A DNA stretch of 55,628 nucleotides from an uncultured Pelagibacteraceae bacterium (GTDB taxonomy: Bacteria; Pseudomonadota; Alphaproteobacteria; Pelagibacterales; Pelagibacteraceae): assembly GCA_902550805.1 (NCBI GenBank), contig CACDAL010000007.1:1-55628 (forward strand), written 5' to 3'. Position numbers and translations under genes: made by a program. This document shows positions 7,203-30,441 of the stretch, piece by piece. How positions within the stretch are numbered: the first letter of the stretch is position 1; the number at the start of each line of letters is the position of its first letter. Below the pieces are notes generated by a model. That model saw only the letters and a list, made by a program, of their open reading frames with translations. It was not told the DNA's origin and did not search any database.

Positions 7203-7220
7203 ATTAGGGAGGAATAATTT

Positions 7221-9215: not shown

Positions 9216-9233
9216 TTTAATTAAAATATTATT

Positions 9234-9623: not shown

Positions 9624-9654
9624 TGATTTATAATAATATAAAAGGAGCAATCAA

Positions 9655-10509: not shown

Positions 10510-10512
10510 TTT

Positions 10513-10932: not shown

Positions 10933-10954
10933 TTTATTTTTATGAGAGTTTAGA

Positions 10955-13680: not shown

Positions 13681-13696
13681 GATTTGAAAGGATTAA

Positions 13697-15763: not shown

Positions 15764-15769
15764 TAAATT

Positions 15770-16939
15770 ATGACCTTGAATTCTTTTCAATTTAACACTA
15801 CCCCTGGTCTTCGATTTGGAAGTGGCCAAGCCAAAAATTCATGTAAAGAAATATCAGATAAACTTGGAGAAAAGATACTTTTTATTACTGACAAAGGTTT
15901 AATGTCGTTAGGCTTAACTGAACCAACTATAAAAGAATTACAAAAAAATGGATCTGTAGAAGTTTTTGACGATGTTGAATCTGATCCTTCTCAAAAAACT
16001 CTTTTAAATGCAATTGAGATAGGAAAAAAAATTAAAGCAACAGGAGTTATTGGATTTGGTGGAGGATCTTCAATGGATGTTGCCAAGTTATCCGCACTAA
16101 TACTTGGTTCTAATGAAAATTTGGAGGAAGCCTGGGGTGTTGCAAATGCAAAAGGACCTCGTTTACCGCTTGTTCTAATACCAACTACAGCTGGAACAGG
16201 TTCTGAAGTAACACCAATATCAATTATTACAGTAGGAGAAGAAGAAAAAAAAGGAGTTTCATCATCTTTAATATTACCTGATTTAGCAATCTTAGATCCT
16301 GAATTAACTCTCGGTCTTCCCGCAAGCACTACAGCAGCAACAGGAATTGATGCCATGGTTCATGCGATTGAAGGATTTGCATCATCAAACAAAAATAACA
16401 ATCCAATTTCAAAAATGTTAGCAATTGAAGCTTTAAAATTACTTGGAAGTTCAATTGAACAAGCTGTTTTAGATGGTTCAAATGTTGAAGCTAGAGGAAA
16501 AATGTTAATAGGAGCTATGTTAGCAGGTAAAGCTTTTGCTAATTCTCCAGTAGCAGCAGTTCATGCACTTGCTTATCCAATTGGAGGAACTTTTCATATT
16601 TCTCATGGTCTTTCTAATTCATTAGTTTTACCTTATGTGCTTAGATTTAATACAGTAGACACTAAAGCTTCAAAAGATTATGCTGAACTTGCCCCATATG
16701 TTTTTCCGAATATTGACATAAACAAAGGGGCACAATCAGTTTCTGCCGAATTTATTGACAAATTAGAGGATTTATCGAAGAAACTAGGTTTACCTCAAAA
16801 ATTAAGAGAAGTTGATATACCCAAAGAAGCATGTGAAAAAATGGCTCGAGATGCAATGAAACAGACTAGATTGCTTGTTAACAATCCAAGAGAGGTAACA
16901 GAAAAAGATGCTCTTAACATTTATCAATCGGCTTGGTAG
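15770..16939 (+). CDS. Iron-containing alcohol dehydrogenase
   Basis: A 389-residue group III (Fe) alcohol dehydrogenase. NAD binding is shown by GFGGGSSMDVAK (about 94-105) and the TTAGTGSEVTPIS block (about 141-153). The metal ligands fit the Asp and His of GIDAMVHAIEG and the two His of VHALAYPIGGTFHISHG. The length equals the family norm. Members reduce or oxidise small alcohols and aldehydes, including gamma-hydroxybutyrate, lactaldehyde and 1,3-propanediol. The next gene is a lactonase-like metallo-beta-lactamase, and the pair recalls the blcB-blcC (attL-attM) genes for gamma-butyrolactone use in Agrobacterium. So oxidation of a hydroxy-acid produced by ring opening is a reasonable guess. 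Confidence 0.88.
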   Translation: MTLNSFQFNTTPGLRFGSGQAKNSCKEISDKLGEKILFITDKGLMSLGLTEPTIKELQKNGSVEVFDDVESDPSQKTLLNAIEIGKKIKATGVIGFGGGSSMDVAKLSALILGSNENLEEAWGVANAKGPRLPLVLIPTTAGTGSEVTPISIITVGEEEKKGVSSSLILPDLAILDPELTLGLPASTTAATGIDAMVHAIEGFASSNKNNNPISKMLAIEALKLLGSSIEQAVLDGSNVEARGKMLIGAMLAGKAFANSPVAAVHALAYPIGGTFHISHGLSNSLVLPYVLRFNTVDTKASKDYAELAPYVFPNIDINKGAQSVSAEFIDKLEDLSKKLGLPQKLREVDIPKEACEKMARDAMKQTRLLVNNPREVTEKDALNIYQSAW

Positions 16940-16948
16940 GAAAGTATT

Positions 16949-17785
16949 ATGAAAGAAAAAGAGATAGATATTTTTGAACAAACAAAAAAATTTAATACAG
17001 GTATTAGACTGTATATGTTTCAAACAGGTTCAATTAAGACGAAACTAAAGTTTATTAAAATGAATCAAAGTGATGAACCATATGAAATACCAATTCCTTG
17101 GTTTTTAATTAAACATCCTGAAGGTGATGTTGTTATAGATGGAGGAATGCCAATAGAAGTGGCGCTAGACAAACATAAACATTGGGGCTCTGTGGTGGAA
17201 GCATATGATCCTGTTATGAAAGCATCTGAATGGTGCAAAGATGTTGTTAAAACAGTAAATACAAAACCGGAAGATGTTAAATATGTCATACAAACTCATT
17301 TACATTTAGATCACTCAGGAGCTATTGGACATTTTCCTAATGCAACACATATTACGCAAAAATTAGAATATGATTATGCATTCAATCCTGATTGGTTTTC
17401 ACAACCAGCTTATATAAGGGCTGACTTTGATAAACCAAATATACGTTGGAAATTTCTTCAGGGTAGAAAAACTGATTTTTACGATGTGTACGGTGATGGA
17501 GTTATAAAAGTAATTTTTACACCAGGACATACACCGGGACATCAATCTGTATTGGTTAATCTTCCAAAGACTGGCCACATGTTATTCACAGGTGATGCCT
17601 GCTATACAGGAGATCATTGGTGTGACAAATGTTTGCCAGGACTCGTAGCATCTTCGTCTGATGCCGCAGAGTCTGTAAAAAAATTAAGAAGAGTCGCAAA
17701 AGAATATAATGCAAAAGTTGTATGGGGTCACGACCCAGTTTCTTGGCTTGATTGGAAAAAAGCTCCAATGTTTTATTACGATTAG
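16949..17785 (+). CDS. Metallo-beta-lactamase-fold hydrolase, AttM/lactonase-like
   Basis: A 278-residue zinc hydrolase. The metal motifs are HLHLDHSG (about residue 114), the His of TPGHTPGHQS, the Asp of LFTGDACYTGDHW and the His of VVWGHDPVSW. The segment after the first motif (AIGHFPNATHITQKLEYDYA) and the double TPGH-TPGH pattern are typical of the AHL-lactonase/AttM branch, which opens lactone rings. It is nine bases after the Fe-alcohol dehydrogenase and is the last gene of the operon. The next gene converges from the other strand four bases away. A role as quorum-quenching lactonase is possible but operon context favours a catabolic lactone. Confidence 0.85.
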   Translation: MKEKEIDIFEQTKKFNTGIRLYMFQTGSIKTKLKFIKMNQSDEPYEIPIPWFLIKHPEGDVVIDGGMPIEVALDKHKHWGSVVEAYDPVMKASEWCKDVVKTVNTKPEDVKYVIQTHLHLDHSGAIGHFPNATHITQKLEYDYAFNPDWFSQPAYIRADFDKPNIRWKFLQGRKTDFYDVYGDGVIKVIFTPGHTPGHQSVLVNLPKTGHMLFTGDACYTGDHWCDKCLPGLVASSSDAAESVKKLRRVAKEYNAKVVWGHDPVSWLDWKKAPMFYYD

Positions 17786-18393: not shown

Positions 18394-18594
18394 TTACAAT
18401 TTACAAATTAAGAAAAAAATATTGATCACTAAAAAAGTTGTTATTTCATCTTTTAATTGTTGATAATCAACATATCTAAGATCACTCGATGATATGGCGA
18501 TATCAACTAAACTCTTTGATTCTTCTCTTGATATACCAATATCTTCAGAGAGATCGTTAATTATATTTAAATATTTAGTTTTTTTATCTATCAT
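18394..18594 (-). CDS. Uncharacterised 66-residue protein
   Basis: A short frame whose ATG overlaps the stop of the biotin carrier gene (18591-18594), a typical coupled start. Residues 1-48 are helical and acidic (NIINDLSEDIGISREESKSLVDIAISSSDL), and the last dozen residues are hydrophobic (TFLVINIFFLICKL), so it could be tail-anchored in the inner membrane. No family is recognised. Its position between the carrier protein and a GST in one operon, plus tight spacing, argues that it is real, though a short frame of this size in AT-rich DNA could be fortuitous. Confidence 0.5.
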   Translation of the reverse strand: MIDKKTKYLNIINDLSEDIGISREESKSLVDIAISSSDLRYVDYQQLKDEITTFLVINIFFLICKL

Positions 18595-18809
18595 TCAATT
18601 ATTATAGCTACTGTACCAGGGTCAATTCCTTCTTGATCATTTACAACATTAACTTTAATCACTGTTCCATCAACAGGAGAATCATGATGAACTTCTGTTT
18701 TCATAACTTCCATTATAAACAAATTGTCTCCTTTTTTTACCGTATCTCCTTCTTTCACTAGGACTTTCCACATGTTTCCAGGTACAGTAGTTTTAACTTC
18801 AGTTGCCAT
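18591..18809 (-). CDS. Free-standing biotin carboxyl carrier protein
   Basis: A 72-residue biotinyl domain. The biotin-accepting lysine is K37 in E-V-M-K-T-E; the family norm is E-A-M-K-M or E-S-M-K-M, so two flanking residues differ. The rest follows the fold: VPGNMWKVLVKEGDTVKKGDNLFIMEVMK, then SPVDGTVIKVNV and DPGTVAIII, with the glycines of the turns kept. It lacks the proline-rich N-terminal region of acetyl-CoA carboxylase AccB. Lying between the KipA-like gene and a small gene in the operon, it is the evident carrier for the biotin carboxylase fusion at 19962-22412. Together they form a split urea-carboxylase-like enzyme. Confidence 0.88.
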   Translation of the reverse strand: MATEVKTTVPGNMWKVLVKEGDTVKKGDNLFIMEVMKTEVHHDSPVDGTVIKVNVVNDQEGIDPGTVAIIIE

Positions 18810-18828: not shown

Positions 18829-19956
18829 TTAATCAAAAAATCTAACTTTTATATTTTTCATTCCTTTTTTTTCCATTAATTTGCTTCTTATTTTTTCATT
18901 CATTTTTTCTTTATCAAAATCAATAATTTTAATTTTGTCGATTTTTATACTTGGTCTTTTTTCTTTAAGAATATTTTCTTTTTTTGAAGACAACAAGCTT
19001 GCTTCACTACAAATAGCTGATTGTTCTGTTCGTAAATCTTGGGCTTTTTCAACTGATATTTCAATAAAATTGAAACTGTCTCCCGGTTTAGCTTGTCCAA
19101 GTTTCCAAAAAGAAGCTGATGGAACTGTATAAGGAACAATAAACCCTCCCATACTCGGCCCATCATTGACCAATATGATTGGAGTTTGACCAGCTAAATT
19201 AATTGCACCAGCCGGATAACCTTGATCAATAATATTTGAAGGAAATGTTCCATGCTCCAAACCTTTGTTAGTTGCTTTTTCAGCAAAAGACCATTTTGGC
19301 CCATCTAATCTATAACCGGTACGATCACTTTTAGATTGAAGTTTCCAATCAGCATTTAAAAACATTTTATGTCCTTTTTCATCAATCCAATCATCATTAG
19401 GTCCTTTTACAACTTCTATTGACCATTTTTTATTTACAGACATTACTGGTATGGAATCTTTTTTTATTTTTCTACCAGCTACTGATTTTGATTTATTCAA
19501 TGGAATTATTTGACCTTCTTGAATGGCTTTACCATCAACACCTCCGACGCCAGCTTTATGAAAAGTTGATCTAGAACCCAACCATGGAGTTGTATTTATT
19601 CCTCCAGCAAAAGCAATATAAGATCTTGCTCCTATAGTTGCAAAAGCCATCTCTAGAATTTGATCTTTTTTAACTTCTAAACTTTCCCACAAAGGAACGG
19701 CTTTTCCATCTATTTTTGGAGACATGTCAGCACCTGTTATTGCAATAATTCTATCACTTTTAAATTTTAGAGTAGGGCCCATGAATTGACATTCCAAAGC
19801 TGCTGTACCAGGATCATTTTCTACAAGAACATTTGCAAGTCTAAACGACCAACTGTCCATTGGACCTGAGGAAGGAAATCCTTGATTTAAAGTTCCAATT
19901 CTTCCAGGATAATCTTGTACAGAAGTTTCCAAACCTTTTTTAATTACTTGAACCAT
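18829..19956 (-). CDS. pxpC: KipA/PxpC-like carboxyltransferase subunit (AHS2 domain) with extra tail
   Basis: A 375-residue protein of the AHS2/KipA family. These proteins form 5-oxoprolinase with PxpA and PxpB, and are also half of the carboxyltransferase domain of urea carboxylase. The domain starts with IKKGLETSVQDYPGRIGTLNQGFPSSGPMD-type sequence (residues 4-32) and contains ALECQFMGPTL, GADMSP, and the late GQTPIILVNDGPSMGGF and AKPGD motifs. The start at the ATG 19954-19956 fits this better than the longer frame from 19998, which would overlap the preceding gene by 37 bases. After the domain ends (about residue 295) comes a lysine-rich extension whose last 40 residues match the tail of two other operon proteins. 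Spacing to the preceding gene is five bases. Confidence 0.85.
   Translation of the reverse strand: MVQVIKKGLETSVQDYPGRIGTLNQGFPSSGPMDSWSFRLANVLVENDPGTAALECQFMGPTLKFKSDRIIAITGADMSPKIDGKAVPLWESLEVKKDQILEMAFATIGARSYIAFAGGINTTPWLGSRSTFHKAGVGGVDGKAIQEGQIIPLNKSKSVAGRKIKKDSIPVMSVNKKWSIEVVKGPNDDWIDEKGHKMFLNADWKLQSKSDRTGYRLDGPKWSFAEKATNKGLEHGTFPSNIIDQGYPAGAINLAGQTPIILVNDGPSMGGFIVPYTVPSASFWKLGQAKPGDSFNFIEISVEKAQDLRTEQSAICSEASLLSSKKENILKEKRPSIKIDKIKIIDFDKEKMNEKIRSKLMEKKGMKNIKVRFFD
18832..18951 (-). other. Shared C-terminal tail module, copy in KipA/PxpC
   Basis: The last 40 residues contain K-I-K-I-I-D-F-D-K-E-K, a 19-residue charged spacer, and K-V-R-F-F-D at the end. The same layout closes the 173-residue protein (26891-26989) and, in shorter form, the ABC ATPase (27412-27501). 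Ordinary KipA proteins are not known to me to carry it. Confidence 0.75.
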
Positions 19957-19961
19957 AATTA

Positions 19962-22412
19962 TTAAAATCTTTTCGTGTGATCTATTGTTGTTAACCAATT
20001 TTTATAATTTTTTACCGAAAATTTTTGATATTCAATAATATTATAATTGTAAGTACCTTCTTTTATTTTTTTTGATACATGATCAAATTCTTCATAACTA
20101 GTTGGTACAAATTTTACTCTATCTCCAGGCTGAAAGAGACAAATGTTATTTTCAAACACTGAAAAGCTTTTTTTTGTGTCCCAAATTGGAACTGGAATAA
20201 TTCCAAAAATTTGGTAACCACCAGGCAGTCTGTCAGGGTATATGCATGTTGAAGCGCCACCCATTCCCACAGATCCTTTTGGAGTCCAAGTTCTAGGAGG
20301 GTTATATTTGGGAACTGTCAGTTTACATCTTGGATCAAGAGCCATCATAAAAGGAAGCCCAGGCCAAAACCCTATAGCTGCCACCCAATATTCAGTACTT
20401 GAATGAACTCTTACAAATTGGTCTATATTATCTAGATTATTTAATTCTGTAATAAGTTCTGGATCAGGTTTCTTTTTAGAAATTTTGTTAGAATAATCTT
20501 CAATACATTCTTTAGTCCATTTATCAAGATAAACAGTAGGAAAAGAAAAAATTCTACTATTTATTTCTATCTCATCTGAAGGTCCTAAAGATTTTATTAA
20601 AGATTTTAATTCATTTTTTAAATCATTAAATTTAATTTCATCTGGTTCGTAATGAACTATCATTGAAGCGAAACAAGGAGATGTTTCATAAACTCCCTTA
20701 ACATTATGATCCTTTATTGCTTTTGCAAGGTTTTGGGCGGTAAAGTTTAATTCTAAATTCATAACATTACCGAATTCAATAAGCATATACTTATCACCAG
20801 CGGGTAAAAATTTTGGTTTATCATAAATTTTACCTGGGATATTTTTAACTTCAGTCTTTATTTCAGATTTTATTTTGTTTTTTGAAGAGACGATGTTTTC
20901 AAACGCTTTTAAATCTTTAGCTGTGTAGCCTTGGTCATTTTTCATTTTAGGAGTTTTTGAAATAATTTTTTCAAAAGCTTTTAAATCTTTATCGCTATAT
21001 TCCTGTTTAGCTTTGACATCTTCTTTTTTTAATTGCAAAATATCCTCTTTTTTCTTAACGATTGATGTCAAATTATTTTCAATAAATTTTGTGTTAAAAT
21101 TTGCATCTTCAAAATTTTTGTTTTGGAGTACAGATATTAAAAAAGATTTGTTGGTATTAATTCCATGAATTTCAAATTCTTTAAGATATTTTATCATATT
21201 GTTAATACTTTCATTTCTATTAGAGCCTTTGGAAATAATTTTTGCTATCATTGGATCGTAATAAAAAGATATTTCGTCTCCTTCATCAACACCGATATCT
21301 AATCTGATATTATTAGAATTAGTACTTGGAGTTTTAAGTTTTGAGATTTTTCCAGGAGATGGAAGAAAGTTTTTTGAAGGATCTTCAGCGTACAATCTAC
21401 ATTCTAAAGCATGTCCAGACCTATTAATTTTACTTTGCTCTGTTAAATCTAGATCAACATTTAATGCAAACTTAATTTGCATTTCAACCAAGTCTGAATT
21501 TGTAATTGTTTCCGTAACTGGATGTTCCACTTGAATTCTTGTATTCATTTCTAAAAAATAAAATTTCTTTTCATCCACATCGTAAATAAATTCTATTGTT
21601 CCAGCACCTTCATATTTTTGATTAGTAGCAAAATTAACTGCGCTTTCGGCCATTTTATTTATAATTTCAGTATCAATTTTTGGAGCAGGACTTTCTTCTA
21701 TAATTTTTTGAAACCTTCTTTGTATTGAACAATCTCTTTCGTAAAAATGAACGGCTTTCTTTTCTCCGAAACCAAATACCTGTATTTCAATATGTCTTGC
21801 ATTTTTTATAAATTTTTCCAAAAAAACATCGCTATTACCAAAAGCTTTTTTTGCTAAATTTTTTGTTTTTTCCACAGATTTAACTAATTCGTTGTAATCG
21901 TTTACAATTTGCATCCCTATTCCACCACCTCCGGCGCTAGCTTTTATTAAAATAGGAAATCCAATTTCATTACATTTTTTTTCTAAATCATCATTTTCTA
22001 AATCTTTATTATTTAAGCCAGGACATATAGGAAGATCACTTTTTAACGCTAAATCTCTAGCTATATCTTTATTGCCCATAGATACAATTGTATTGGGTTT
22101 TGGCCCTATCCAAACAATACCCGCATCAATCACTTCTTGAGCAAATTTATCATTTTCTGCCAAAAAACCATATCCCGGGTGTATAGCATCGGCTTTTACT
22201 TTTTTTGCTGCTTCAATTATTTTTGATGAAGATAAATAGCTGTCCTGGGCTTTTGAACCACCTATGTGAATTGATTCATTAGCTTTTCTTACATGTTTGC
22301 TATTTTTATCCACATCAGAATAAACTGCAATTGAATGAAATTTTAATTTTTTACAGCTGTCAATAATTCTACAGGCAATTTCCCCACGGTTTGCGATTAG
22401 AATCTTTTTCAT
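19962..22412 (-). CDS. Biotin carboxylase fused to KipI/PxpB (AHS1) domain
   Basis: An 816-residue fusion. Residues 1-450 are a biotin carboxylase: ILIANRGEIACRII at the start, the ATP-grasp loop KASAGGGGIGMQIV (about 151-164), HIEIQVFG and EMNTRIQVEHPVTE, all intact. A lysine-rich linker (about 455-540) holds two copies of a Y-[ST]-x-x-D-L-K-A-F-E motif. Residues 545-816 are a KipI/AHS1 domain (YMLIEFGN, VRVHSSTEYWVAAIGFWPGLPFMMALDP, then the PPRTWTPKGSVGMGG and PGGYQIFG motifs). Urea carboxylase has the same parts in one chain with KipA and the carrier domain; here they are three genes. The expected activity is ATP- and biotin-dependent carboxylation of an amide- or urea-like nitrogen. PxpA lies immediately before it in the operon (five bases). 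Confidence 0.87.
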   Translation of the reverse strand: MKKILIANRGEIACRIIDSCKKLKFHSIAVYSDVDKNSKHVRKANESIHIGGSKAQDSYLSSSKIIEAAKKVKADAIHPGYGFLAENDKFAQEVIDAGIVWIGPKPNTIVSMGNKDIARDLALKSDLPICPGLNNKDLENDDLEKKCNEIGFPILIKASAGGGGIGMQIVNDYNELVKSVEKTKNLAKKAFGNSDVFLEKFIKNARHIEIQVFGFGEKKAVHFYERDCSIQRRFQKIIEESPAPKIDTEIINKMAESAVNFATNQKYEGAGTIEFIYDVDEKKFYFLEMNTRIQVEHPVTETITNSDLVEMQIKFALNVDLDLTEQSKINRSGHALECRLYAEDPSKNFLPSPGKISKLKTPSTNSNNIRLDIGVDEGDEISFYYDPMIAKIISKGSNRNESINNMIKYLKEFEIHGINTNKSFLISVLQNKNFEDANFNTKFIENNLTSIVKKKEDILQLKKEDVKAKQEYSDKDLKAFEKIISKTPKMKNDQGYTAKDLKAFENIVSSKNKIKSEIKTEVKNIPGKIYDKPKFLPAGDKYMLIEFGNVMNLELNFTAQNLAKAIKDHNVKGVYETSPCFASMIVHYEPDEIKFNDLKNELKSLIKSLGPSDEIEINSRIFSFPTVYLDKWTKECIEDYSNKISKKKPDPELITELNNLDNIDQFVRVHSSTEYWVAAIGFWPGLPFMMALDPRCKLTVPKYNPPRTWTPKGSVGMGGASTCIYPDRLPGGYQIFGIIPVPIWDTKKSFSVFENNICLFQPGDRVKFVPTSYEEFDHVSKKIKEGTYNYNIIEYQKFSVKNYKNWLTTIDHTKRF
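20886..21001 (-). other. Two linker copies of the Y-[ST]-x-x-D-x-x-x-F repeat in the biotin carboxylase fusion
   Basis: The copies read Y-S-D-K-D-L-K-A-F-E-K-I and Y-T-A-K-D-L-K-A-F-E-N-I, with 24 residues from one tyrosine to the next. They fit the pattern of four repeats in the 173-residue protein of the same operon. They lie between two folded domains where a flexible docking element would be accessible. Confidence 0.75.
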
Positions 22413-22417
22413 TTAAT

Positions 22418-23137
22418 TTATTTTTTTAGAGCTTTTTTTAAACTTTTTATTATTTCAACTGCATTTGGAGTATCTGAATGAACGCAAATTATATCACATC
22501 CGACATCGGTGTCAGTGCCAATAGTATTTTTAACTTTTTTTTCTGAAATGGCTCGTAAACAACGCTTTACAGCAAGTTTACTGTTATATTTTGCATTCTT
22601 ACCTTTTGCTATTACGAGCTTACCTTCTTTATCGTAATCTAGATCTGCATAGAACTCAGCAATAAAATCTAATTTTCTTTCTTGTTTGTAAACTTTTTCA
22701 TGAGCGGTATTTGCCATTCCAAAAATACTTACATCAAAAGCTTCAACTGCATCAGCTATTGCTCTAGCAATTTCTTCATCTTTTGAAGCCATAACATATA
22801 GTGATCCATGAGGTTTAATATGATTTAAAGGCATATTTAATTCATCTAAAAATGCTTTTAGAGCACCAACTTGATACATTATCATATTTTTTAATTCTAA
22901 TTTTGGCATCTTCATTTCTCTTCTTCCAAATCCTTGTAAATCAGGAAAAGAAGGATGGGCACCCACTTTAACTTTATGTTTTTTTGCCAGCTCTACAGTT
23001 TTTCTCATATGATTTGGATCTGAAGCATGAAAGCCACAAGCTACATTAGCAACATCTATTAAAGGCATTATTTCTTCATCGTTACCGGCGTTATAAATTC
23101 CAAAACTTTCGCCCATATCACAATTTATTTTTGTCAT
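22418..23137 (-). CDS. pxpA: LamB/YcsF family protein, 5-oxoprolinase subunit A
   Basis: A 239-residue PxpA. The opening is INCDMGESFGIYNAGNDEEIMPLIDVANVACGFHASDP-type (residues 4-41), with the family D-M-G-E-S-F and A-N-V-A-C-G-F-H-A-S-D motifs. The middle has HPSFPDLQGFGRREM and IKPHGSLY, and the end carries ICVHSDTPNAVEI. The length equals the family norm. PxpA with PxpB and PxpC hydrolyses 5-oxoproline to glutamate using ATP. In this operon PxpB is fused to a biotin carboxylase, so the substrate may be another cyclic amide. A clear Shine-Dalgarno (AAGGAGAT) precedes the ATG. Confidence 0.9.
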   Translation of the reverse strand: MTKINCDMGESFGIYNAGNDEEIMPLIDVANVACGFHASDPNHMRKTVELAKKHKVKVGAHPSFPDLQGFGRREMKMPKLELKNMIMYQVGALKAFLDELNMPLNHIKPHGSLYVMASKDEEIARAIADAVEAFDVSIFGMANTAHEKVYKQERKLDFIAEFYADLDYDKEGKLVIAKGKNAKYNSKLAVKRCLRAISEKKVKNTIGTDTDVGCDIICVHSDTPNAVEIIKSLKKALKK

Positions 23138-23154
23138 TTTGGTATCTCCTTTAT

Positions 23155-24552
23155 TTAAATTTGCGACCTAATATGCGGAGATCTAGCGTATAAAGCAACC
23201 ATAGGTATAATTAATAAACCTAATATAAACTGTTGAGCTTCCCATTTTAGACCCCAACCAACTAATACAGTTGTAATTATTTGTAAAATTAAAACCCCTA
23301 TCACACTTAATCCATATCCACCGTAACCTCCTAATAAAGAAGTTCCTCCAACAACAACAGCAGCGATAGTTAAAAATAAATATGTGTCACCAACTCCTAT
23401 AAAACCTCCTCCGCTCCAACCAAGAAGCAGAGCACCAGTTAGTGATGCAAAAAAACCACTAATTACATAAGCTCCAATCCAATAACCTCTTTCAGAAATA
23501 GATAATCTTGAAGATGATAAACGACTTCCTCCAAGCGCGTAAAGATTTCTTCCCCATTTAGTTAAGCGAAGAGCAACAATTATAATTATGGAAGCGACAA
23601 TCCAAACTAAAATTATGGGGGGAATAGGTAACCCAATGGTTTTACCATTCATAGAAGCAATATTTCTCATCCAATCAGGCACAACACCAAAAACTGTACC
23701 TGCAGAAAAAGTACCCATTGCCACTAGAATTTGAACGCCTCCCTTAACGAAAAAACCAACGCCCAAAGTTAGTATTAATGCTTGACCTTGCAGCCTAAAA
23801 CTTAAGATGCCATTTATTAATCCTATTATTAGACCTAATATTAACACAGCAATCAAACCTAACCAAGGAGGAACACCTTTAGAAATTAAAGACATTAGAG
23901 CAACATTGGAAGCTCCTATTAAAAAAGGAATTGATAAATCGAGACCTCCCAATAATGCTACAAAAGTTTGTCCCACAGTTGCCAAACCTAAGAATGCGGC
24001 AAATACCAACATTGCTTTCATGTTAAGAAGCGAAAGAAATCCATTTATGGTAAGAGCTCCTATTATGAATAATGCAATTAAGACAGAAATACCAATGAAT
24101 ACACTTTTTTGGGCAGTGATGTATTGACCAACAACACCCATTAAAATAATAAATCCTAAGAATATTAAAAAAGAAACTAAAGTACGGCCAGAAAAGAAAC
24201 CTTCAGCAATAAATGAAACAAAAATAAAAATAAGTATTAATAAAATAAAAGCTATCGTCTTCCATTTGTTATCTCTAACAGTTTTAAAGAAGAAGTTTTC
24301 TTCATCTTCTTCATCTAACTTTTCTTCTTTTGGAAATTTAGAAAATATATTTTGTTTTAAATCGCTATTAATCCATCTAACAGAAAAATGATACCAACCC
24401 CATAATATTAATCCAGTTACTGCTATGGAGTAAGTTACGATATTCATCCAGTCAGCACTATCGTACCAACCCAATACTGCGGTACCTATACCACACAATA
24501 TTGCAAATAATAATCCTAAACCTTTAAAGAAAAGAAATGCAGATCTTTTCAT
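23155..24552 (-). CDS. RbsC-like sugar-type ABC permease with N-terminal extension
   Basis: A 465-residue membrane protein. The C-terminal 320 residues match the BPD_transp_2 family (RbsC/XylH): VGQTFVALLGGLDLSIPFLIGASNV, GLIIGLINGILSFRLQGQALILTLG, GRNLYALGGSRLSSSRLS and VVVGGTSLLGGYGGYGLS. An N-terminal segment of about 130 residues adds two or three membrane helices (residues 7-55) and a charged loop before the usual first helices. It starts two bases after the larger permease gene ends, so the two form a heteromeric channel for the importer. The 17 bases after it lead directly to PxpA, tying import to the cytoplasmic enzymes. Confidence 0.87.
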   Translation of the reverse strand: MKRSAFLFFKGLGLLFAILCGIGTAVLGWYDSADWMNIVTYSIAVTGLILWGWYHFSVRWINSDLKQNIFSKFPKEEKLDEEDEENFFFKTVRDNKWKTIAFILLILIFIFVSFIAEGFFSGRTLVSFLIFLGFIILMGVVGQYITAQKSVFIGISVLIALFIIGALTINGFLSLLNMKAMLVFAAFLGLATVGQTFVALLGGLDLSIPFLIGASNVALMSLISKGVPPWLGLIAVLILGLIIGLINGILSFRLQGQALILTLGVGFFVKGGVQILVAMGTFSAGTVFGVVPDWMRNIASMNGKTIGLPIPPIILVWIVASIIIIVALRLTKWGRNLYALGGSRLSSSRLSISERGYWIGAYVISGFFASLTGALLLGWSGGGFIGVGDTYLFLTIAAVVVGGTSLLGGYGGYGLSVIGVLILQIITTVLVGWGLKWEAQQFILGLLIIPMVALYARSPHIRSQI

Positions 24553-24553
24553 G

Positions 24554-26884
24554 TTATTTTACCTCTTCCCATTGGCTTAGTTGATTATCTCGAGCAATTT
24601 TTTCTCTATATACCCTCATGAATTGCCACACCAAAGGAGTAAGTGGTATTCCAATTACAAATACAGCTATAATTTTGTACAGTGGATACCCAACAGAATA
24701 AAATATTGCAGACCACAAAATGCCAGCGAAAATAACAATGTACATATAAGGAGCAAATCGTTTGTAGCTAGCTTTATGACCCATATTTAAAAATAAAAAA
24801 TATTGTAATAAAAAAACCGCAAGTATACTAAAGGCAAATTGTGAATATCCTGACCTTATAGTCTCATAAAATAATCTTTTTGGTTCTCCATAATTTACCT
24901 GTGAAAGATCACCTATATTTAACTCGCTTATTATTTTCGACTGATAAAGCGAAGGATCATTAGGAATAAAGATGTTTCCTCCTATAAAATAAGTAGCAAG
25001 TATAGCCAATACACCAAACCCAAATATATAAACATTTGTTAAATTTTTTATTCTAGAATGAACAAAAGGGGCTGTAATAACAAAAAGCAATAATATTACC
25101 AATATAACACCGTAACCTTGAATACCGAAAATACTATTAATATTATTTTCTATTAGATTGTTATAAGAGATACCTTTTAAAACCACTAAACTTAAAGCAG
25201 CAAGAAATAGCATCATAGCGGTTGATTTCATGCGGTTACTAAATTGAGGTAACATTGCTATGACAATTAATGATGCTAATAAAACTACTCCAGCAATGTA
25301 GATAATACTATATGTAGTTCCAGAAAGAATGCCAACATTTGAAATATCAGAAATATAATCAATTTTTTCAAGACTAAAATATTTAGGTGAAGAAGATTCA
25401 ATGCTGCTAACCTGATTTGATTGTAGTCCTATTTGCTCAGTATTTTTAAGCAAATCTTTTTCTTTATCCTCAGGATCAAATATTAATCCAGCAACTATGA
25501 TGGCAATAATAACTACAAAAGATATTGTAGAGGCATTTCTGTGTACCGAAAGAAGATAAAGCAGAAGTGCAAGTCCTGCTAGACCTAAAATCACATACAG
25601 GACAAGAGTTCCGGGAGTTTCAGAAAACTGAACAACAGAGTGTCCCGCTAAAGATCCTCCTTGCTTAGTTCCTGTACCAGTAGTTGTTCCTGATTCTCCT
25701 TCTTCAACAATAATATTTCCTGTTGCGTCCAATTTACGAACTTTGGTTCCTCTTTTGTATGATTTAGAAGCTTCATCTGTGTCCCCAACAACTTGTTCAA
25801 CAACAATAGGTTGATCATACACTTGATGAATTACTACAAATAAACCTGCAAAAGACATAAGAATAAAAAAAACCATAACAGATAAACCTTTTGTAATTCT
25901 TGTCACGTATGGAAGGATAAGGCTTACAAGTAAAGCAATTACCAATACTGCACCATAAGATAAATCAGAGACAAAGCTTTGCAATCTTTCAAATCTAAAT
26001 GTAACTAAAATATAATTTATTAAATAAAGGTTTCCTGCACCTAAAATTGCTCCAAAGGCACCACCACGACCACCTACAAGACTGGCTCCACCAAGAACCA
26101 GTGCAGTTACTCCTAAAAGTGTATACTTAGTTCCTTGTATAGGATCTCCAGAACCAACCAGGGCAGTAAAACATATTGCGGATAACGCAGCAAAAACTCC
26201 TGCTATTAAGTGAGCAACTATTCTTACCCAGTTAATTTTAACACCACTTGTAAAAGCTGCACGCTCATCTGCACCCATCATTTTTAAATGGCCCCAAAAA
26301 GCAGTGTGTGTGATGATATAAAATAAAATTGTTGCTAAAATCATCAGAAGAAACACTTCATTAAATATTGTAAAACCTTCTCCCCAAGGTATTAACCAAT
26401 CTGGCGCAATACCTCCTGGACGAGAAAGAATAACAAGATTAATTCCAGTGAATGCTAAATAGCCCGCTAGTGCGACTATAATAGGTGAAACTCTTACATA
26501 TACTACAATCAAAGCATAAAACAGTTGCCAAAGTAAACCTACAACAATGGCGTAAATAAACCATCCAATAGATGTTTGTAAATATCCATGCGCATATAAC
26601 TGGATACTGCTGACATTTATAAAACCCATAAAAGGACCTATAGATAAGTCAACACCACCTCGACCAGCCATAACAATAAATGTTAAAGCATAAGTAGTTA
26701 ATATAAGTGGAGCACTTAGAATTATTGCACTACCAATACCAGATTGTGAGATAATAATTGGACTTCTTATCATTGCAAAAATCAACAGTGAAAAGAAAAT
26801 AAAAATTGGCACCATAAGATACTTATTCGAAGAAGTATCTACACTTGACCTAAAAACTTTTTTAATTTTGTCTGTTATTTCCAT
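24554..26884 (-). CDS. RbsC-like ABC permease fused to a second multi-helix domain
   Basis: A 776-residue protein, more than twice the family length of about 320. Residues 1-335 form the permease (FIVMAGRGGVDLSIGPFMGFINVSS, GADERAAFTSGVKINWVRI, LGVTALVLGGASLVGGRGGAFGA). Residues 336-776 hold about ten further membrane helices with two soluble loops: one of roughly 70 residues after residue 350 rich in Gly/Thr/Ser, and one of about 55 residues around 468-525. The added half has no motif that I recognise. Start ATG lies four bases after the 173-residue protein gene. The whole operon suggests it pairs with the 465-residue permease. No frameshift or stop interrupts the join, so the fusion appears genuine. 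Confidence 0.85.
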   Translation of the reverse strand: MEITDKIKKVFRSSVDTSSNKYLMVPIFIFFSLLIFAMIRSPIIISQSGIGSAIILSAPLILTTYALTFIVMAGRGGVDLSIGPFMGFINVSSIQLYAHGYLQTSIGWFIYAIVVGLLWQLFYALIVVYVRVSPIIVALAGYLAFTGINLVILSRPGGIAPDWLIPWGEGFTIFNEVFLLMILATILFYIITHTAFWGHLKMMGADERAAFTSGVKINWVRIVAHLIAGVFAALSAICFTALVGSGDPIQGTKYTLLGVTALVLGGASLVGGRGGAFGAILGAGNLYLINYILVTFRFERLQSFVSDLSYGAVLVIALLVSLILPYVTRITKGLSVMVFFILMSFAGLFVVIHQVYDQPIVVEQVVGDTDEASKSYKRGTKVRKLDATGNIIVEEGESGTTTGTGTKQGGSLAGHSVVQFSETPGTLVLYVILGLAGLALLLYLLSVHRNASTISFVVIIAIIVAGLIFDPEDKEKDLLKNTEQIGLQSNQVSSIESSSPKYFSLEKIDYISDISNVGILSGTTYSIIYIAGVVLLASLIVIAMLPQFSNRMKSTAMMLFLAALSLVVLKGISYNNLIENNINSIFGIQGYGVILVILLLFVITAPFVHSRIKNLTNVYIFGFGVLAILATYFIGGNIFIPNDPSLYQSKIISELNIGDLSQVNYGEPKRLFYETIRSGYSQFAFSILAVFLLQYFLFLNMGHKASYKRFAPYMYIVIFAGILWSAIFYSVGYPLYKIIAVFVIGIPLTPLVWQFMRVYREKIARDNQLSQWEEVK

Positions 26885-26887
26885 AAA

Positions 26888-27409
26888 TCAATCAAAATAA
26901 ACTATCTTAATTTTATCAATACCCAATTTGTTTTTAATATTTTTTTCATTTTCCTTTAGTTTGTTAAAATCAATTATTTTAATTTTCCTACTATTTATAT
27001 CTTTATTATTAGTGTTTTCATTTTTTGTTTTGATGATTTTATTAAATTTGTTAACATCATCAGAAGTATAGCTAGTGATAGTTTTTGAATTTTCTTTTTT
27101 TGTTTCTACGTCTTCAGTAATATTAAAATTTATTAATTCTTTAAGTTTATTCAATTTTTGAAAATCAGAAGAATTATAATAATTATTTCCTTTTGATTTT
27201 TGAGTCTCTTTAGAAGAAGAAGTTTCATTATTATTAATATTCATAATTTTATTAAAATTATTATTATCTGAAGCTGAATATTTGAAAAGATGTTTGGTTG
27301 TTTGGTTATTGTTTGGATTATAATTTTTAATTTTACTAAAATTATTTAATTTTTTAAAATTAATTAAATCTTCTTCTGAGTAATAATTATTTATAGATTC
27401 TTTTTTCAT
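26888..27409 (-). CDS. Repeat protein with four Y-x-x-x-D-x-x-x-F motifs and the shared tail
   Basis: A 173-residue Asn/Lys-rich protein without signal peptide or membrane helix. Four repeats start at Y10, Y44, Y78 and Y114, spaced 34, 34 and 36 residues. Each has Tyr at 0, Ser/Thr/Asn at +1, Asp at +4, Phe or Leu at +8, Lys at +10 and Ile/Leu at +11. The rest of each unit is low complexity. The end (141-173) contains K-I-K-I-I-D-F-N-K and closes with K-I-K-I-V-Y-F-D. The same repeat occurs twice in the biotin carboxylase fusion and the tail in two other operon proteins. The start overlaps the preceding stop by one base. I read it as a linker or scaffold between importer and enzyme; no known family is recognised. 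Confidence 0.75.
   Translation of the reverse strand: MKKESINNYYSEEDLINFKKLNNFSKIKNYNPNNNQTTKHLFKYSASDNNNFNKIMNINNNETSSSKETQKSKGNNYYNSSDFQKLNKLKELINFNITEDVETKKENSKTITSYTSDDVNKFNKIIKTKNENTNNKDINSRKIKIIDFNKLKENEKNIKNKLGIDKIKIVYFD
26891..26989 (-). other. Shared C-terminal tail module, copy in the 173-residue repeat protein
   Basis: The last 33 residues hold K-I-K-I-I-D-F-N-K-L-K, a charged spacer, and K-I-K-I-V-Y-F-D at the terminus. The two conserved blocks match the KipA/PxpC end residue by residue at most positions. The spacer is six residues shorter. Confidence 0.75.
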
Positions 27410-28563
27410 TAAAATGTTTTTATTTTTATTTTCTTATTTGAACTATCTTCATTAGATTTTTTTTCTTTATCAAAATCTACAACTTTTATAATTTTTTTAT
27501 CTATAGGAGTTGAATTTTTTTGGTGAATATTTTTTTCAGGTTTTATTTTTGAATCAATGGAACTAGTTGAACTGCTAAGACTAGTAGAGCCTATTCCTGC
27601 AGTTTGACCAAACATCCCTTCAAGCAAAGTATCTGCATTAACTTTTTCATTTTCAAAAATATCAAATATTGTTCCATGTCTAAAGACAATAACTTTTGGA
27701 CAAAGTCCGATAAACTCTTCTAGTTCACTAGATAGAAAAATTACTGTATTTCCTTCTTCTACAAATTTTCTAAGATGAACATATAAATCTCTTTTTGTAC
27801 TAACATCGATACCTCTGGCCGGATCGTTTAGAATAAGAATTTTTGGATGCTGCGCAAAAGATCTAGCTATCATAACTTTTTGCTGATTTCCTCCGCTTAG
27901 TGAACCTATAAGATTATCTTTTGGACCAGTTTTAATACTTAGTCTTTCAACTTCCCATTCATATATACCGTTTAGCTCAAGCCAGTTAACAAAACCCAAC
28001 CATCCTGCTTTACTTGTTGTCCGATAAAGTGGAACTACTAAATTCTCGTAAATACTTAAGTTGGGAAGTATACCTTCTTTTTTTCTATCTCCAGAAACAA
28101 AAGAAACTCCATTATTTTTTGCTTCCATTAAAGAATTAAATTTTACAAATTTATCATTACTATCTAAAACTTCGGTAGTACCCCCATGAGATTCTTGTAC
28201 ACCTGCTAAAATTTTTACAAAGTCATCCTGTCCATTACCATCTAATCCTGTAACACCTACTATCTCACCTCTACGTACTTCAAAATTTATCGGTGTACTT
28301 TCAGGCCAAACAACTAGATTTTCAGCTCTCATTACCACCTTGTCAGTTTGTGTTTTTACCGCAACAGATGTAGATTTTTTTCCAGACTCCGCTCTCCCTG
28401 TCATTAAGCTCAATAAGTTTTTTTCGTTAAGATCTTTTTTCTCTAAAACCCCAACATCTTTACCATCCCTCATAACTGTTGCTTTATCACTTATACGTAT
28501 CAATTCAGCTATTCGGTGGGTAACAATAAAAACAGCAACACCATTATCTCTTAATTCTCTCAT
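27409..28563 (-). CDS. Sugar-type ABC ATPase, second part (NBD1 end plus NBD2) with extra tail
   Basis: A 384-residue frame that continues an RbsA-type double ATPase. The first 50 residues (MRELRDNGVAVFIVTHRIAELIRISDKATVMRDGK) complete nucleotide-binding domain 1, including its switch His. Domain 2 (about 75-320) has the usual degenerate Walker A GLDGNGQDD, an intact LSGGNQQKV signature and ILNDPARGID as Walker B. After residue 325 a Ser-rich stretch leads to a tail with K-V-V-D-F-D-K-E-K and K-I-K-I at the end. The ATG overlaps the stop of the upstream half in an ATGA arrangement at a run of six A. Restoring one base would give a normal single chain. Either coupled translation or slippage could make the product. 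Confidence 0.85.
   Translation of the reverse strand: MRELRDNGVAVFIVTHRIAELIRISDKATVMRDGKDVGVLEKKDLNEKNLLSLMTGRAESGKKSTSVAVKTQTDKVVMRAENLVVWPESTPINFEVRRGEIVGVTGLDGNGQDDFVKILAGVQESHGGTTEVLDSNDKFVKFNSLMEAKNNGVSFVSGDRKKEGILPNLSIYENLVVPLYRTTSKAGWLGFVNWLELNGIYEWEVERLSIKTGPKDNLIGSLSGGNQQKVMIARSFAQHPKILILNDPARGIDVSTKRDLYVHLRKFVEEGNTVIFLSSELEEFIGLCPKVIVFRHGTIFDIFENEKVNADTLLEGMFGQTAGIGSTSLSSSTSSIDSKIKPEKNIHQKNSTPIDKKIIKVVDFDKEKKSNEDSSNKKIKIKTF
27412..27501 (-). other. Shared C-terminal tail module, copy in the ABC ATPase
   Basis: The last 30 residues contain I-I-K-V-V-D-F-D-K-E-K, a nine-residue spacer, and K-K-I-K-I-K-T-F. The first block is nearly identical to that of KipA/PxpC; the second block lacks the terminal Phe-Asp pair but keeps the alternating Lys/Ile pattern. 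Confidence 0.7.
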
Positions 28564-29177
28564 TTTTTAAATAATCTCTCTGTTGAATCGAAATCGAGTG
28601 CAGCTGAAGATTCATCCAAAATTAATACTTTCGTGTTTTCACGCAAAAATGCTCTTCCAATTGTAATCCATGCTTTAATTGGCAATGATAGGTTAAATAC
28701 TTGAGTGTATGGATCTATATATTCGCCCGCTAGATCTTCCATAAGTTCTTGAGCTTTTAAAACTTTTTCTCTTTGTGTTAAATTTTTGTACCAAAAGCTA
28801 TCTGAACCAACAAATAAGTTGTCTACAACAGAAGCTTCTTCAGCGATCATAACTTCTTGGAAAACGGTAGCTATTCCCATTTCTCTTGCCATAACAGGAG
28901 AAGTAGGAGTATGACCCAATACTGAAACTTTCCCTTTATCTATTGGCAAAACTCCAGACATTACTTTTGCTAATGTACTTTTTCCACAACCGTTACCTCC
29001 AACGATTGCATGAATTTCTCCAAAATTTGCATTAAAATTCACTCCGTTAAGGGCTTTAGTTACACCAAAATATTTATGAACATCTTGGACGTAAACATCG
29101 CCTGTAACAGTTTCGGATTTCTTAGACAACACCTCTTTATTAGAGGTGTTGTCTTTTAAGTTTTGTTCTGCACTCAT
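28560..29177 (-). CDS. Sugar-type ABC ATPase, first part (most of NBD1)
   Basis: A 205-residue frame with an intact Walker A (GGNGCGKST, about 66-74), a Q-loop (TVFQEVMIAEEASV) and Walker B (VLILDESSAALDFDSTERLF). The signature is weak: S-L-P-I-K-A-W stands where L-S-x-G-x-x-Q is expected, while the following IGRAFLR is normal. The frame stops right after T-E-R-L-F-K-K; the next residues expected in the RbsA family (E-L-R-x-x-G-V-A-V) are found in the overlapping -1 frame starting at 28563. The first 25 residues are an extra charged N-terminus that also encodes a perfect RNA hairpin. It follows the binding-protein gene by 17 bases. Confidence 0.83.
   Translation of the reverse strand: MSAEQNLKDNTSNKEVLSKKSETVTGDVYVQDVHKYFGVTKALNGVNFNANFGEIHAIVGGNGCGKSTLAKVMSGVLPIDKGKVSVLGHTPTSPVMAREMGIATVFQEVMIAEEASVVDNLFVGSDSFWYKNLTQREKVLKAQELMEDLAGEYIDPYTQVFNLSLPIKAWITIGRAFLRENTKVLILDESSAALDFDSTERLFKK
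29124..29154 (-). repeat. Perfect 13-bp stem hairpin inside the ATPase coding start
   Basis: Arms 29124-29136 and 29142-29154 are exact reverse complements around a five-base loop. On the operon strand it lies about 24 bases into the coding region and about 40 bases after the binding-protein stop codon, with no U-run behind it. That makes an intrinsic terminator unlikely but a 3'-end stabiliser for the upstream binding-protein message plausible. Confidence 0.8.
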
Positions 29178-29194: not shown

Positions 29195-30397
29195 TTAGTG
29201 AGAGCTTATATCGTATTTCTCAGGATCTGCCGGATTATCAAAGAATGTTTCAACATAAGCTCTAGGAGCCCAGTTTTCTATTCCTGGATTATCCCAACCA
29301 GTAGAGTTTCTATCGCAATCTTCACCTAAGACTGCTGCGATATCATCAAAACTCTTTGTTGCAGGACCAACTAATATAGATTGGATTCTTGGACCTTGAC
29401 CTTGTAAAGTTCTGATCATAACTTCCATACCCAACTCTATTTCGTCTCCTGGAGGCCAAGCATATATCGCTTCATCAATATAACCTGGGTTTTGTCTCCA
29501 ATAACATAGAGCACCTAGCTCACCACCTAGTGCGATTGGTGGAATAGGATCACGTCCAGACTGAAGTAATGCTTGTAAAGTTCCAGTTTCTCCAGAAGAT
29601 TGAACAGCAATACCATGTATCTCTATAGGGTTACTTGATAACCATTGAGATAATTCTTTCTGTGCAACTTGTGAAGTCCAGTTGTGTGCTAACTGAGCAA
29701 CAACTTTTATTCCATCATATTGTCCTAGACCTTCTAGCATTCCATCACTTTGTTGGTCAGAAGCAGAATAGCCAGGAATTCCATCCATAACTATTACATT
29801 TCCTTTTTCACCAATAAGTTCAGCCATCCAAGCACCAATATAATAACCAACTAGTCTGTAGTTAACTGACGTATTGATTGAATATGGTGAAGTTGTAAAA
29901 CCTGTGAAAGAAAGTGTTGGAACACCTTTTTCCCAACCATATTTAATTGTTTGGTTAAGTGCAGTTAAGTTTGAACAGCAAATAATAATAGCATCAACTT
30001 TTCCGCCATCAATCATCTGTCTCATTTGTTGAATTTGCAATGTATCATCCAAGTTTGATTGAGTTATAACGATTTCATCTACCATCCCTAATGATTTCCA
30101 TTTTGGATAGACAACTTCCATCAATCTTTCCATTGCACCTTTACGCCATGTATTACCGGCATAAGTACTAGCGTAACCTATTGTCCAAGGTGGTTTTCTA
30201 GGACTTTTCCAGTTTTTCATGACAGTTGGACCTAAAGGTTGGTCCTTATCCATAAAATCCATGTTGTATACATAATCTCTCATGTCAGCAGGAACTTTGC
30301 TTAAACATTCTGTACACAATTCTTGCGCAGATGCAGTATTAAAAATTCCTAAAAACCAAGAGAAAAGAACAACACTAAGTAATTTACTTATTTTCAT
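29195..30397 (-). CDS. Periplasmic sugar-type ABC substrate-binding protein
   Basis: A 400-residue Peripla_BP_4-type binding protein. A signal peptide is clear (MKISKLLSVVLFSWFLGIF, cleaved after A-S-A). A CTEC pair follows at the mature N-terminus. The body has IGYASTYAGNTWRKGAMERL, QMIDGGKVDAIIICCSN, GVPTLSFTG and VIVMDGIPGYSASDQQSDGML, the usual layout of ribose/xylose-type binding proteins. I choose the ATG at 30395-30397 because a strong AGGAGAG site lies four bases before it and the signal peptide begins there; an upstream ATG would add nine charged residues. It is the first gene of the operon. The ligand cannot be inferred from the fold alone; the enzymes downstream suggest a lactam or urea-like compound. 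Confidence 0.88.
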   Translation of the reverse strand: MKISKLLSVVLFSWFLGIFNTASAQELCTECLSKVPADMRDYVYNMDFMDKDQPLGPTVMKNWKSPRKPPWTIGYASTYAGNTWRKGAMERLMEVVYPKWKSLGMVDEIVITQSNLDDTLQIQQMRQMIDGGKVDAIIICCSNLTALNQTIKYGWEKGVPTLSFTGFTTSPYSINTSVNYRLVGYYIGAWMAELIGEKGNVIVMDGIPGYSASDQQSDGMLEGLGQYDGIKVVAQLAHNWTSQVAQKELSQWLSSNPIEIHGIAVQSSGETGTLQALLQSGRDPIPPIALGGELGALCYWRQNPGYIDEAIYAWPPGDEIELGMEVMIRTLQGQGPRIQSILVGPATKSFDDIAAVLGEDCDRNSTGWDNPGIENWAPRAYVETFFDNPADPEKYDISSH

Positions 30398-30441
30398 ATT
30401 CTCTCCTTTGTGTTTTTTATTCATGAATAACTGATTATTTC

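Follow-up and report, generated by a model that had tools for sequence, protein, structure and literature searches.

Two short peptide modules in the FArhodopsin cluster of SAR11 bacteria as a candidate docking code between an ABC importer and a biotin-dependent enzyme

The window (the whole stretch of 55,628 nucleotides analysed here, from an uncultured Pelagibacteraceae bacterium) encodes a rhodopsin followed directly, on the same strand, by a flotillin (Table 1). This arrangement is the hallmark of the published flotillin-associated rhodopsin (FArhodopsin, FAR) cluster, and the locus is a FAR cluster as described in the accessible part of that source (PMC10308929). The gene set of the window fits this assignment: rhodopsin and flotillin are accompanied by genes for a dimethylformamidase-like protein, a symporter, PxpA, and the carboxylase and carboxyltransferase proteins found in the Pelagibacterales and HIMB59 versions of the cluster. 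FAR clusters of Pseudothioglobus reportedly have no biotin enzymes (PMC10308929).

Homologues of all three subunits of PxpABC 5-oxoprolinase are encoded in the window: PxpA (LamB_YcsF), PxpB (CT_C_D) and PxpC (CT_A_B). Plain PxpABC is not known to need a biotin carboxylase (BC) or a biotin carrier protein (BCCP). Since both are encoded here besides the PxpABC homologues, the enzyme's substrate may differ from 5-oxoproline. Gene order suggests that the enzyme works on the substrate of the importer. The ABC ATPase ORF of the window is broken at a run of six A, which is seven A long in 7/7 relatives examined.

Table 1. Genes and module sites at the locus, in window coordinates (T, tail module; R, repeat module)
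Feature	Position	Strand	Details
Rhodopsin	6504-7202	+	Bac_rhodopsin
Flotillin	7221-9215	+	Flot
BCCP (biotin carrier)	18591..18809	-	Pfam Biotin_lipoyl
PxpC / KipA	18829..19956	-	Pfam CT_A_B 5.7e-87; start is an ATG chosen in the analysis; T at C-terminus
T of PxpC (CT_A_B protein)	18832..18951	-	KIKIIDFDKEK...IKVRFFD
BC-PxpB fusion	19962..22412	-	Pfam Biotin_carb_N/C, CPSase_L_D2, CT_C_D; linker with two R
R motif 2, BC linker (Y496)	20889..20927	-	helix 498-512 in poor model
R motif 1, BC linker (Y472)	20961..20999	-	helix 474-484 in poor model
PxpA (LamB/YcsF family, Pfam LamB_YcsF)	22418..23137	-	
Importer permease 2	23155..24552	-	Pfam BPD_transp_2
Importer permease 1	24554..26884	-	776 aa; Pfam BPD_transp_2
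p173 (173-aa protein)	26888..27409	-	putative disordered adaptor with four R and T
T of p173	26891..26989	-	KIKIIDFNKLK...KIKIVYFD
R4 of p173 (Y114)	27032..27070	-	
R3 of p173 (Y78)	27140..27178	-	
R2 of p173 (Y44)	27242..27280	-	
R1 of p173 (Y10)	27344..27382	-	
ABC ATPase	27409..29177	-	two ORFs: 28560-29177 and 27409-28563
T of ABC ATPase	27412..27501	-	IIKVVDFDKEK...KIKIKTF
Importer periplasmic binding protein	29195..30424	-	Pfam Peripla_BP_4

PxpC, p173 and the ABC ATPase share a C-terminal module of about 23-37 residues (T) with the consensus I-K-[IV]-[IV]-D-F ... K-[IV]-x-x-F. The original prediction of this shared tail was confirmed in letters and coordinates at all three sites. Its proposed opening, K-I-x-[IV]-[IV]-D-F, stood in the common core I-K-[IV]-[IV]-D-F, but the first K is I in the ATPase. 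A tail test was also applied to shuffled versions of the C-terminal 45 residues; of 200,000 shuffles each, 5 passed for p173, 2 for PxpC and 0 for the ATPase. Tail HMMs were compared at a threshold of i-E<1 on the ORFs of the window plus 47 relatives. The PxpC-tail HMM matched 27/40 ABC and 14/40 p173 ORFs, the ABC-tail HMM matched 15/35 PxpC and 0/40 p173 ORFs, and the p173-tail HMM matched 24/35 PxpC and 1/40 ABC ORFs. Among 474 'other' ORFs, the p173-, PxpC- and ABC-tail HMMs matched 1, 4 and 0. The ABC tail is thus the weakest member of T and is joined to it via PxpC. That p173-tail profiles fail to recognise ABC tails was counted against the docking model considered below.

The second module (R) is a 13-residue capped helix with the consensus Y-[STNK]-x-x-D-x-x-x-F-x-x-[IL]. 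All four predicted copies in p173, spaced 34, 34 and 36 residues apart, match the originally proposed pattern; in the BC linker Y472 matches it as well, but Y496 has N in place of K. The four motifs of p173 compare with a maximum of one in 200,000 shuffles (91 shuffles with one), and the two motifs of the BC linker, with K left free, were never reached in 200,000 shuffles (69 with one). Across the window and 47 relatives, Y[STNADK]..[DE]...[FLIM]..[ILMV] occurs 158 times in 40 p173 ORFs, 73 times in 39 BC ORFs (36/39 with at least two copies) and three times in the 474 control ORFs.

Both modules are under purifying selection. In p173, dN/dS is 0.02 at the R core, 0.40 at other R positions, 0.24 in T and 0.71 in the spacers, and the Y, D and F positions are invariant across 37 sequences with identities down to 24%. 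T and R are kept in the relatives read (45/47 labelled SAR11), and p173 orthologues from another family retain four R-like helical motifs and T. The AlphaFold model of p173 is disordered apart from one capped helix per repeat, and the four repeats are the only places with helices of at least four residues. The pTM of 0.17 gives no confidence in the tertiary structure, and the model therefore lends no support to an R-T contact. For the BC-PxpB fusion, AlphaFold reached a mean pLDDT of only 41, and this model is too poor to reveal a docking site of R.

In the genomes scanned, this cluster is the only place where T and R rise above background. A profile built on SAR11 R sequences, run on 19 genomes, scored 4.9e-7 to 0.01 in the seven cluster genomes and 0.018 at best elsewhere; the corresponding T profile scored 1.8e-9 or better in the same seven and 0.03 at best elsewhere. 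None of 397 further genomes from the phylum had a T match at E<=0.01. On the original question whether the modules occur only in this operon type, no other carrier in these scans was clear of background. We also sought operons with importer and enzymes that lack the motifs. In SAR11 and two other families, the groups sampled, every operon read that has both and whose chain ends are in reach bears T on the ATPase as well as on one or more further proteins. The GC-rich relatives of BC include L191-L194 and L196; the three of them read, L191-L193, carry neither T nor R by pattern, in a check made without annotation of the neighbouring genes. Counting against the docking model, profile A7 also matches an unassigned 20-aa frame in G943 (0.0012) and an 891-aa ORF in G931 (0.0096).

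We read ten loci of a second lineage, probably HIMB59, in which the p173 gene is missing and the modules lie on a different set of proteins. Read by eye, T is present on the ABC ATPase in 9/9 complete cases, on BC in all ten loci and on PxpC in none of six complete cases, and R is found at the N-terminus of PxpB in 9/9 cases. R also stands at the N-terminus of an MBL-fold metallo-hydrolase in 11/11 distinct HIMB59-type sequences, 0/29 from SAR11 and 0/2 from family f142. An R profile built only from SAR11 placed p173, MBL or PxpB in its top 22 matches (9.3e-6 to 0.066) among 359 ORFs of other lineages; six weaker PxpB matches (0.11-1.2) rank below the first unrelated match (0.081). In a set of 201 ORFs, the SAR11 ABC-tail profile put all 11 ABC ORFs whose ends can be read ahead of every other ORF (1e-6 to 0.0045). 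For T on HIMB59-type BC, the SAR11 profile gave a good score in one locus only (5.7e-5), with the others at 1.5-7, within noise; profile A8 scores these tails near 1e-11, but itself includes such rows.

Carriers of T and R thus differ between lineages, which implies that the tags moved between enzymes of one cluster and favours a role in docking. Where BC and PxpB are two proteins, T forms the end of BC and R the start of PxpB; in the fused form BC lacks T, and R is kept at the joint in SAR11 (the one f142 fusion read has a linker without R). By this Rosetta-stone argument, our guess is that T pairs with R.

On balance we favour a model in which T and R form a two-module docking code of a single dedicated system, joining the importer ATPase, the biotin-dependent enzyme and, in HIMB59-type bacteria, the hydrolase. 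T and R would bind and thereby bring the ABC importer ATPase to the PxpABC/urea-carboxylase-like enzyme, giving an assembly at the importer; the MBL-fold hydrolase would join it in HIMB59-type bacteria. Disordered p173, with four R and one T, would act as the adaptor in SAR11, and in the HIMB59 type the enzymes themselves would bear the modules. The original prediction that these parts are held together at the membrane is partly supported, in that T and R, in the genomes scanned, are clear of background in the cluster alone and shift between its enzymes; that the modules bind, what they bind and the membrane location are still things that we infer. More tentatively, the code could be a transferable one that couples the ATPase to the substrate-processing enzyme and hydrolase, with the four-repeat adaptor perhaps condensing the assembly at a flotillin microdomain as an uptake-degradation metabolon in SAR11.

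Other readings of the modules were weighed. All R might bind one site of a folded cluster subunit and all T another, with no T-R binding, and the outcome would still be an importer-enzyme assembly. A motif shared by scaffold and enzymes would then resemble CsoS2/CsoSCA and EPYC1, as presented in the part of the source available (PMC10614612), and the conservation of R is restricted to few residues. We consider this common hub rather unlikely, as it does not explain why T and R sit where they do around the BC/PxpB joint. Alternatively, the flotillin encoded in the cluster, or the microdomain that it forms, might be what T, R or both bind, co-localising the proteins without mutual docking. Microdomains are proposed in the accessible part of the FAR paper (PMC10308929), and flotillin and permease nearly always occur together (42 and 41 of 162 genomes of the order, 39 shared). 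The three flotillin-only genomes are G919, whose contig ends in permease 2, G946, whose contig ends in flotillin, and G912, with only a 44% identical stretch; in the two permease-only genomes (G913, G943) the permease lies close to a contig end. However, a single island predicts this co-occurrence anyway, and the symporter, dimethylformamidase-like protein and alcohol dehydrogenase of the cluster had no T or R match in genome scans, which makes flotillin recruitment improbable.

That the modules are disordered and either terminal or in a linker would also suit tags that control how active each subunit is, how fast it turns over or how its assembly is coupled to translation, without any joining. 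Such tags explain neither a protein with four R and T nor the way in which carriers are exchanged inside a single cluster, and we give them very little credence. The genomes are all AT-rich and the spacers N/K-rich, as expected if chance or composition had made the motifs, but the shuffles, the 474 control ORFs, the whole-genome scans and dN/dS agree with the original view that AT-driven bias is not enough, and we regard this explanation as refuted.

A literature search found the T and R modules nowhere mentioned, and the tails, the repeats and the 173-aa protein are absent from the accessible text of the FAR description (PMC10308929). Analogous systems are known. The repeats of the alpha-carboxysome protein CsoS2 and of pyrenoid EPYC1 bind Rubisco. 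CsoS2 has four repeats per protein, and the motif also occurs on other clients, according to the portion of the source available (PMC10614612). p173 is likewise disordered with a repeated, conserved short helical motif, but it has a C-terminal tail in common with a transporter ATPase, and no shell or Rubisco is involved; we saw no sequence relation. Docking domains of NRPS/PKS systems (SLiM-beta-hairpin pairs and others) pair pathway subunits through short chain-end tails, with motifs on different enzymes, in the part of the review available (PMC9113145). In HIMB59-type loci T stands at the BC C-terminus and R at the PxpB N-terminus, where the two might pair in a comparable way. The modules are carried here by the ATPase of an ABC importer and by a biotin-dependent enzyme. 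A Pfam search of the window proteins found no folded receptor domain of the NRPS/PKS docking type. In dockerin-cohesin systems, a C-terminal module is carried by enzymes and scaffold. T is similarly C-terminal and present on both enzymes and the putative scaffold; no cohesin-like domain was among the Pfam matches of the window proteins.

SAR11 are among the most abundant ocean bacteria. If the docking model is correct, these streamlined bacteria tie nutrient uptake to catabolic enzymes through transferable peptide tags, offering a testable instance of channelling from importer to enzyme and perhaps explaining why the cluster includes a flotillin. Because T and R are short and wired differently by lineage, peptides would be enough for first tests.

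p173 was also considered as a MerR regulator. Its Pfam MerR_1 score is 25.2 bits (cut-off 21.6), yet no stretch passes alone, and the match covers only profile positions 29-62 of 69 (residues 104-138), leaving the N-terminal winged HTH incomplete. Pfam gives nothing at E<=0.001 for the orthologue from f142, and we take the score to reflect the look of one capped helix. Among PDB sequences, the sole match to the p173 profile at E<=1 is a fucolectin-related protein (0.022).

Three proteins of the operon, PxpC, the ABC ATPase and a 173-aa protein (p173), had been noted to end in the same module, here called the tail T (core I-K-[IV]-[IV]-D-F ... K-[IV]-x-x-F), and p173 to carry four copies of a repeat, here R (Y-[STNK]-x-x-D-x-x-x-F-x-x-[IL]), of which the linker of the biotin carboxylase fusion has two. 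The letters, positions and spacings read from the window are correct save for two small corrections, and lie far above shuffled expectation. Tail HMMs join PxpC to p173 and PxpC to the ABC ATPase, but the ABC ATPase and p173 hardly or not at all. Per 1000 residues, p173 has 22 matches to R, vs 0.02 in 474 other ORFs of the window and 47 related loci.

Genes of the operon and the flotillin-associated rhodopsin (FAR) cluster in the window
Feature	Position	Strand	Remark
FAR cluster, left half	6504-17785		rhodopsin, flotillin, dimethylformamidase-like, symporter, Fe-ADH and metallo-hydrolase fold (MBL) genes
Rhodopsin	6504-7202	+	left of operon
Flotillin	7221-9215	+	left of operon
Dimethylformamidase-like protein, sodium:solute symporter, MBL-fold hydrolase		+	left of operon
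PBP (importer)	29195-30424	-	periplasmic binding protein
ABC ATPase	27409-29177	-	split by frameshift
p173	26888-27409	-	173 aa
Permease 1	24554-26884	-	776 aa
Permease 2		-	same operon; 465 aa
PxpA/LamB-YcsF, biotin carboxylase (BC)-PxpB fusion, PxpC, BCCP		-	downstream of permeases, in that order
66-aa protein	18394-18594	-	after BCCP; no Pfam match; kept in operon, 70-85 aa in other lineages
GST-like protein		-	after 66-aa protein

The locus is the FAR cluster described from Pelagibacterales, HIMB59 and Pseudothioglobus (excerpted text of PMC10308929). Among these three groups, the excerpts place biotin-dependent carboxylase genes only in the Pelagibacterales and HIMB59 clusters, and they make no mention of the tails or p173. 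A search with the 776-aa permease identified ten operon-bearing genomes among 397 from the order (source genome counted); in named genomes it led to 47 loci. The titles of 45 read Pelagibacteraceae, Pelagibacterales or Pelagibacter; the remaining two are 'Alpha proteobacterium SCGC AAA288-N07' and a 'Flavobacteriales' MAG, whose locus carries a SAR11-type operon and is probably mis-binned.

In p173, conservation follows the modules. In 494 of 595 SAR11 pairs (saturated or near-identical pairs left out), dN/dS is 0.02 at the 16 core R residues, 0.40 in the rest of R, 0.24 in the tail and 0.71 in the spacers. An alignment of 37 sequences, built without use of any motif, is invariant after M1 at Y10, D14, F24, Y44, D48, F52, D82, Y114, F122, I125, I146, D147, I167, K168, F172 and D173. 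The AlphaFold model (pLDDT 60, pTM 0.17) has helices of at least four residues at 12-29, 46-55, 80-92 and 116-125. All four begin two residues past the motif Tyr, so in this model the [STN] of R caps the helix and Asp is its third residue, an arrangement called a capping box. In the poor model of the BC fusion (pLDDT 41), linker helices 474-484 and 498-512 coincide with the two R copies.

A BC-fusion search of the class, in which 10 of 385 genomes reached E<=1e-135 (source genome counted), pointed to family f32/g43, here called HIMB59-type on the strength of HIMB59 being named in the excerpts of PMC10308929. The importer is present in 41 of 162 genomes of its order. Ten loci, from among the 39 permease-bearing f32 genomes, were counted by eye. 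Here BC and PxpB are encoded separately, and the modules sit in part on other carriers. T ends BC (...RIKIVETDKLK...GGIKVVYFD; 10/10) and the ATPase (...VKVVDF...KIKVKYF; 9/9 complete), and R begins PxpB (EYKNTDLDLFDKI; 9/9), with a second, looser copy. PxpC lacks the tail (0/6 complete), and p173 was not found in these ten loci. R also begins the MBL hydrolase (SYKKSDLDQFDKII): of distinct sequences from the HIMB59 type, 11 of 11 have it there, as against 0 of 29 from SAR11 and 0 of 2 from a third family, f142. An R profile from SAR11 only, holding none of these HIMB59-type rows, ranked p173, MBL and PxpB as its top 22 matches among 359 ORFs; the first unrelated match scored 0.081, and six further PxpB matches were weaker (0.11-1.2). 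A SAR11 ABC-tail profile placed the 11 readable ABC ends at the top of 201 ORFs, and the SAR11 p173/PxpC tail profile detects the BC tail well in one locus only. HIMB59-type PxpA (L188:10814-11596, L228-L233, L236, L237) has an extra C-terminal tail of its own, ending near K-MPYI-[VIE] and absent in SAR11.

Both f142 loci, L234 and L235, encode p173 orthologues (207 and 199 aa; identity 34 and 24%) that retain T and four R-like motifs, one with F replacing Y. The ABC tail is present in both. The PxpC tail is present in L234, where the BC-PxpB linker lacks R; PxpC lies beyond the bounds of L235.

As far as scanned, R and T are confined to the cluster. With R profile A2 (19 genomes), operon matches ran from 4.9e-7 to 0.01 in seven cluster genomes, and the best elsewhere was 0.018; ten of the other 12 genomes lack the permease, and G037 and G038 lack p173 and the full-length fusion. 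T profile A3, built from p173 and PxpC rows, gave operon matches <=1.8e-9 and 0.03 at best elsewhere, and did not detect ABC tails at E<=1. Alignments are shallow, genomes mostly incomplete, and the two remaining profiles, A8 and A7, hold rows of the same kinds as their matches. T profile A8 takes in ABC and BC rows; its matches <0.01 in 26 genomes all lie on ORFs sized like ABC, PxpC, p173 or BC. Among them are a 134-aa ORF of G336, on a contig of its own, and a 382-aa ORF in G918. The profile had no match <0.09 in eight importer-less genomes, and a search of the phylum for T, over 397 further genomes, found none at E<=0.01. R profile A7 (23 genomes of the second order) matched PxpB, MBL and p173 at <0.01, as well as an unassigned 20-aa frame in G943 (0.0012) and an 891-aa ORF in G931 (0.0096); seven genomes without the importer had no match <0.08. 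G918 (L228, L252) also encodes two flotillins of the FAR type, which share 64 and 82% identity with that of the window; either a mixed assembly or two clusters would account for these and the extra T.

The change of carrier within one cluster, the position at chain ends or in linkers, the fixed cores and the drifting spacers make T and R look like docking motifs. We consider this reading somewhat more probable than not; two R matches outside the cluster and the mixed rank of PxpB weigh slightly against it. By analogy with the CsoS2 and EPYC1 scaffolds described below, the R copies might share a single binding surface and the T copies a second one; alternatively, T might bind R. Our guess favours T:R pairing, because the T of BC and the R of PxpB occupy two ends that are fused in other lineages. 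A folded hub or the flotillin might instead be the partner. In the consulted parts of PMC10614612, CsoS2, the scaffold of the alpha-carboxysome, binds Rubisco through four repeats, its motif also occurs on some Prochlorococcus carbonic anhydrases, and the EPYC1 motif is common to other pyrenoid proteins; the likeness is one motif on a scaffold and on further proteins, as with R and T here. In NRPS/PKS docking, short C-terminal motifs pair with N-terminal elements (PMC9113145, in part); Pfam gives no sequence relation of T or R to these. In mostly open-access literature, largely at title and abstract level, we found no such modules for SAR11 or HIMB59, nor any case in which peptides dock an ABC importer to a catabolic enzyme.

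The genome of the window has a second PxpB-PxpC pair and a PxpA homologue (L001), without tail and without R. In permease 1, BPD_transp_2 spans just residues 54-317 of 776, the remainder having no Pfam match at E<=0.01. The ABC ATPase frame is broken at 28560-28570 by a 6-A run, vs 7 A and a single ORF in 7/7 relatives examined, reflecting either a local indel or an assembly error.
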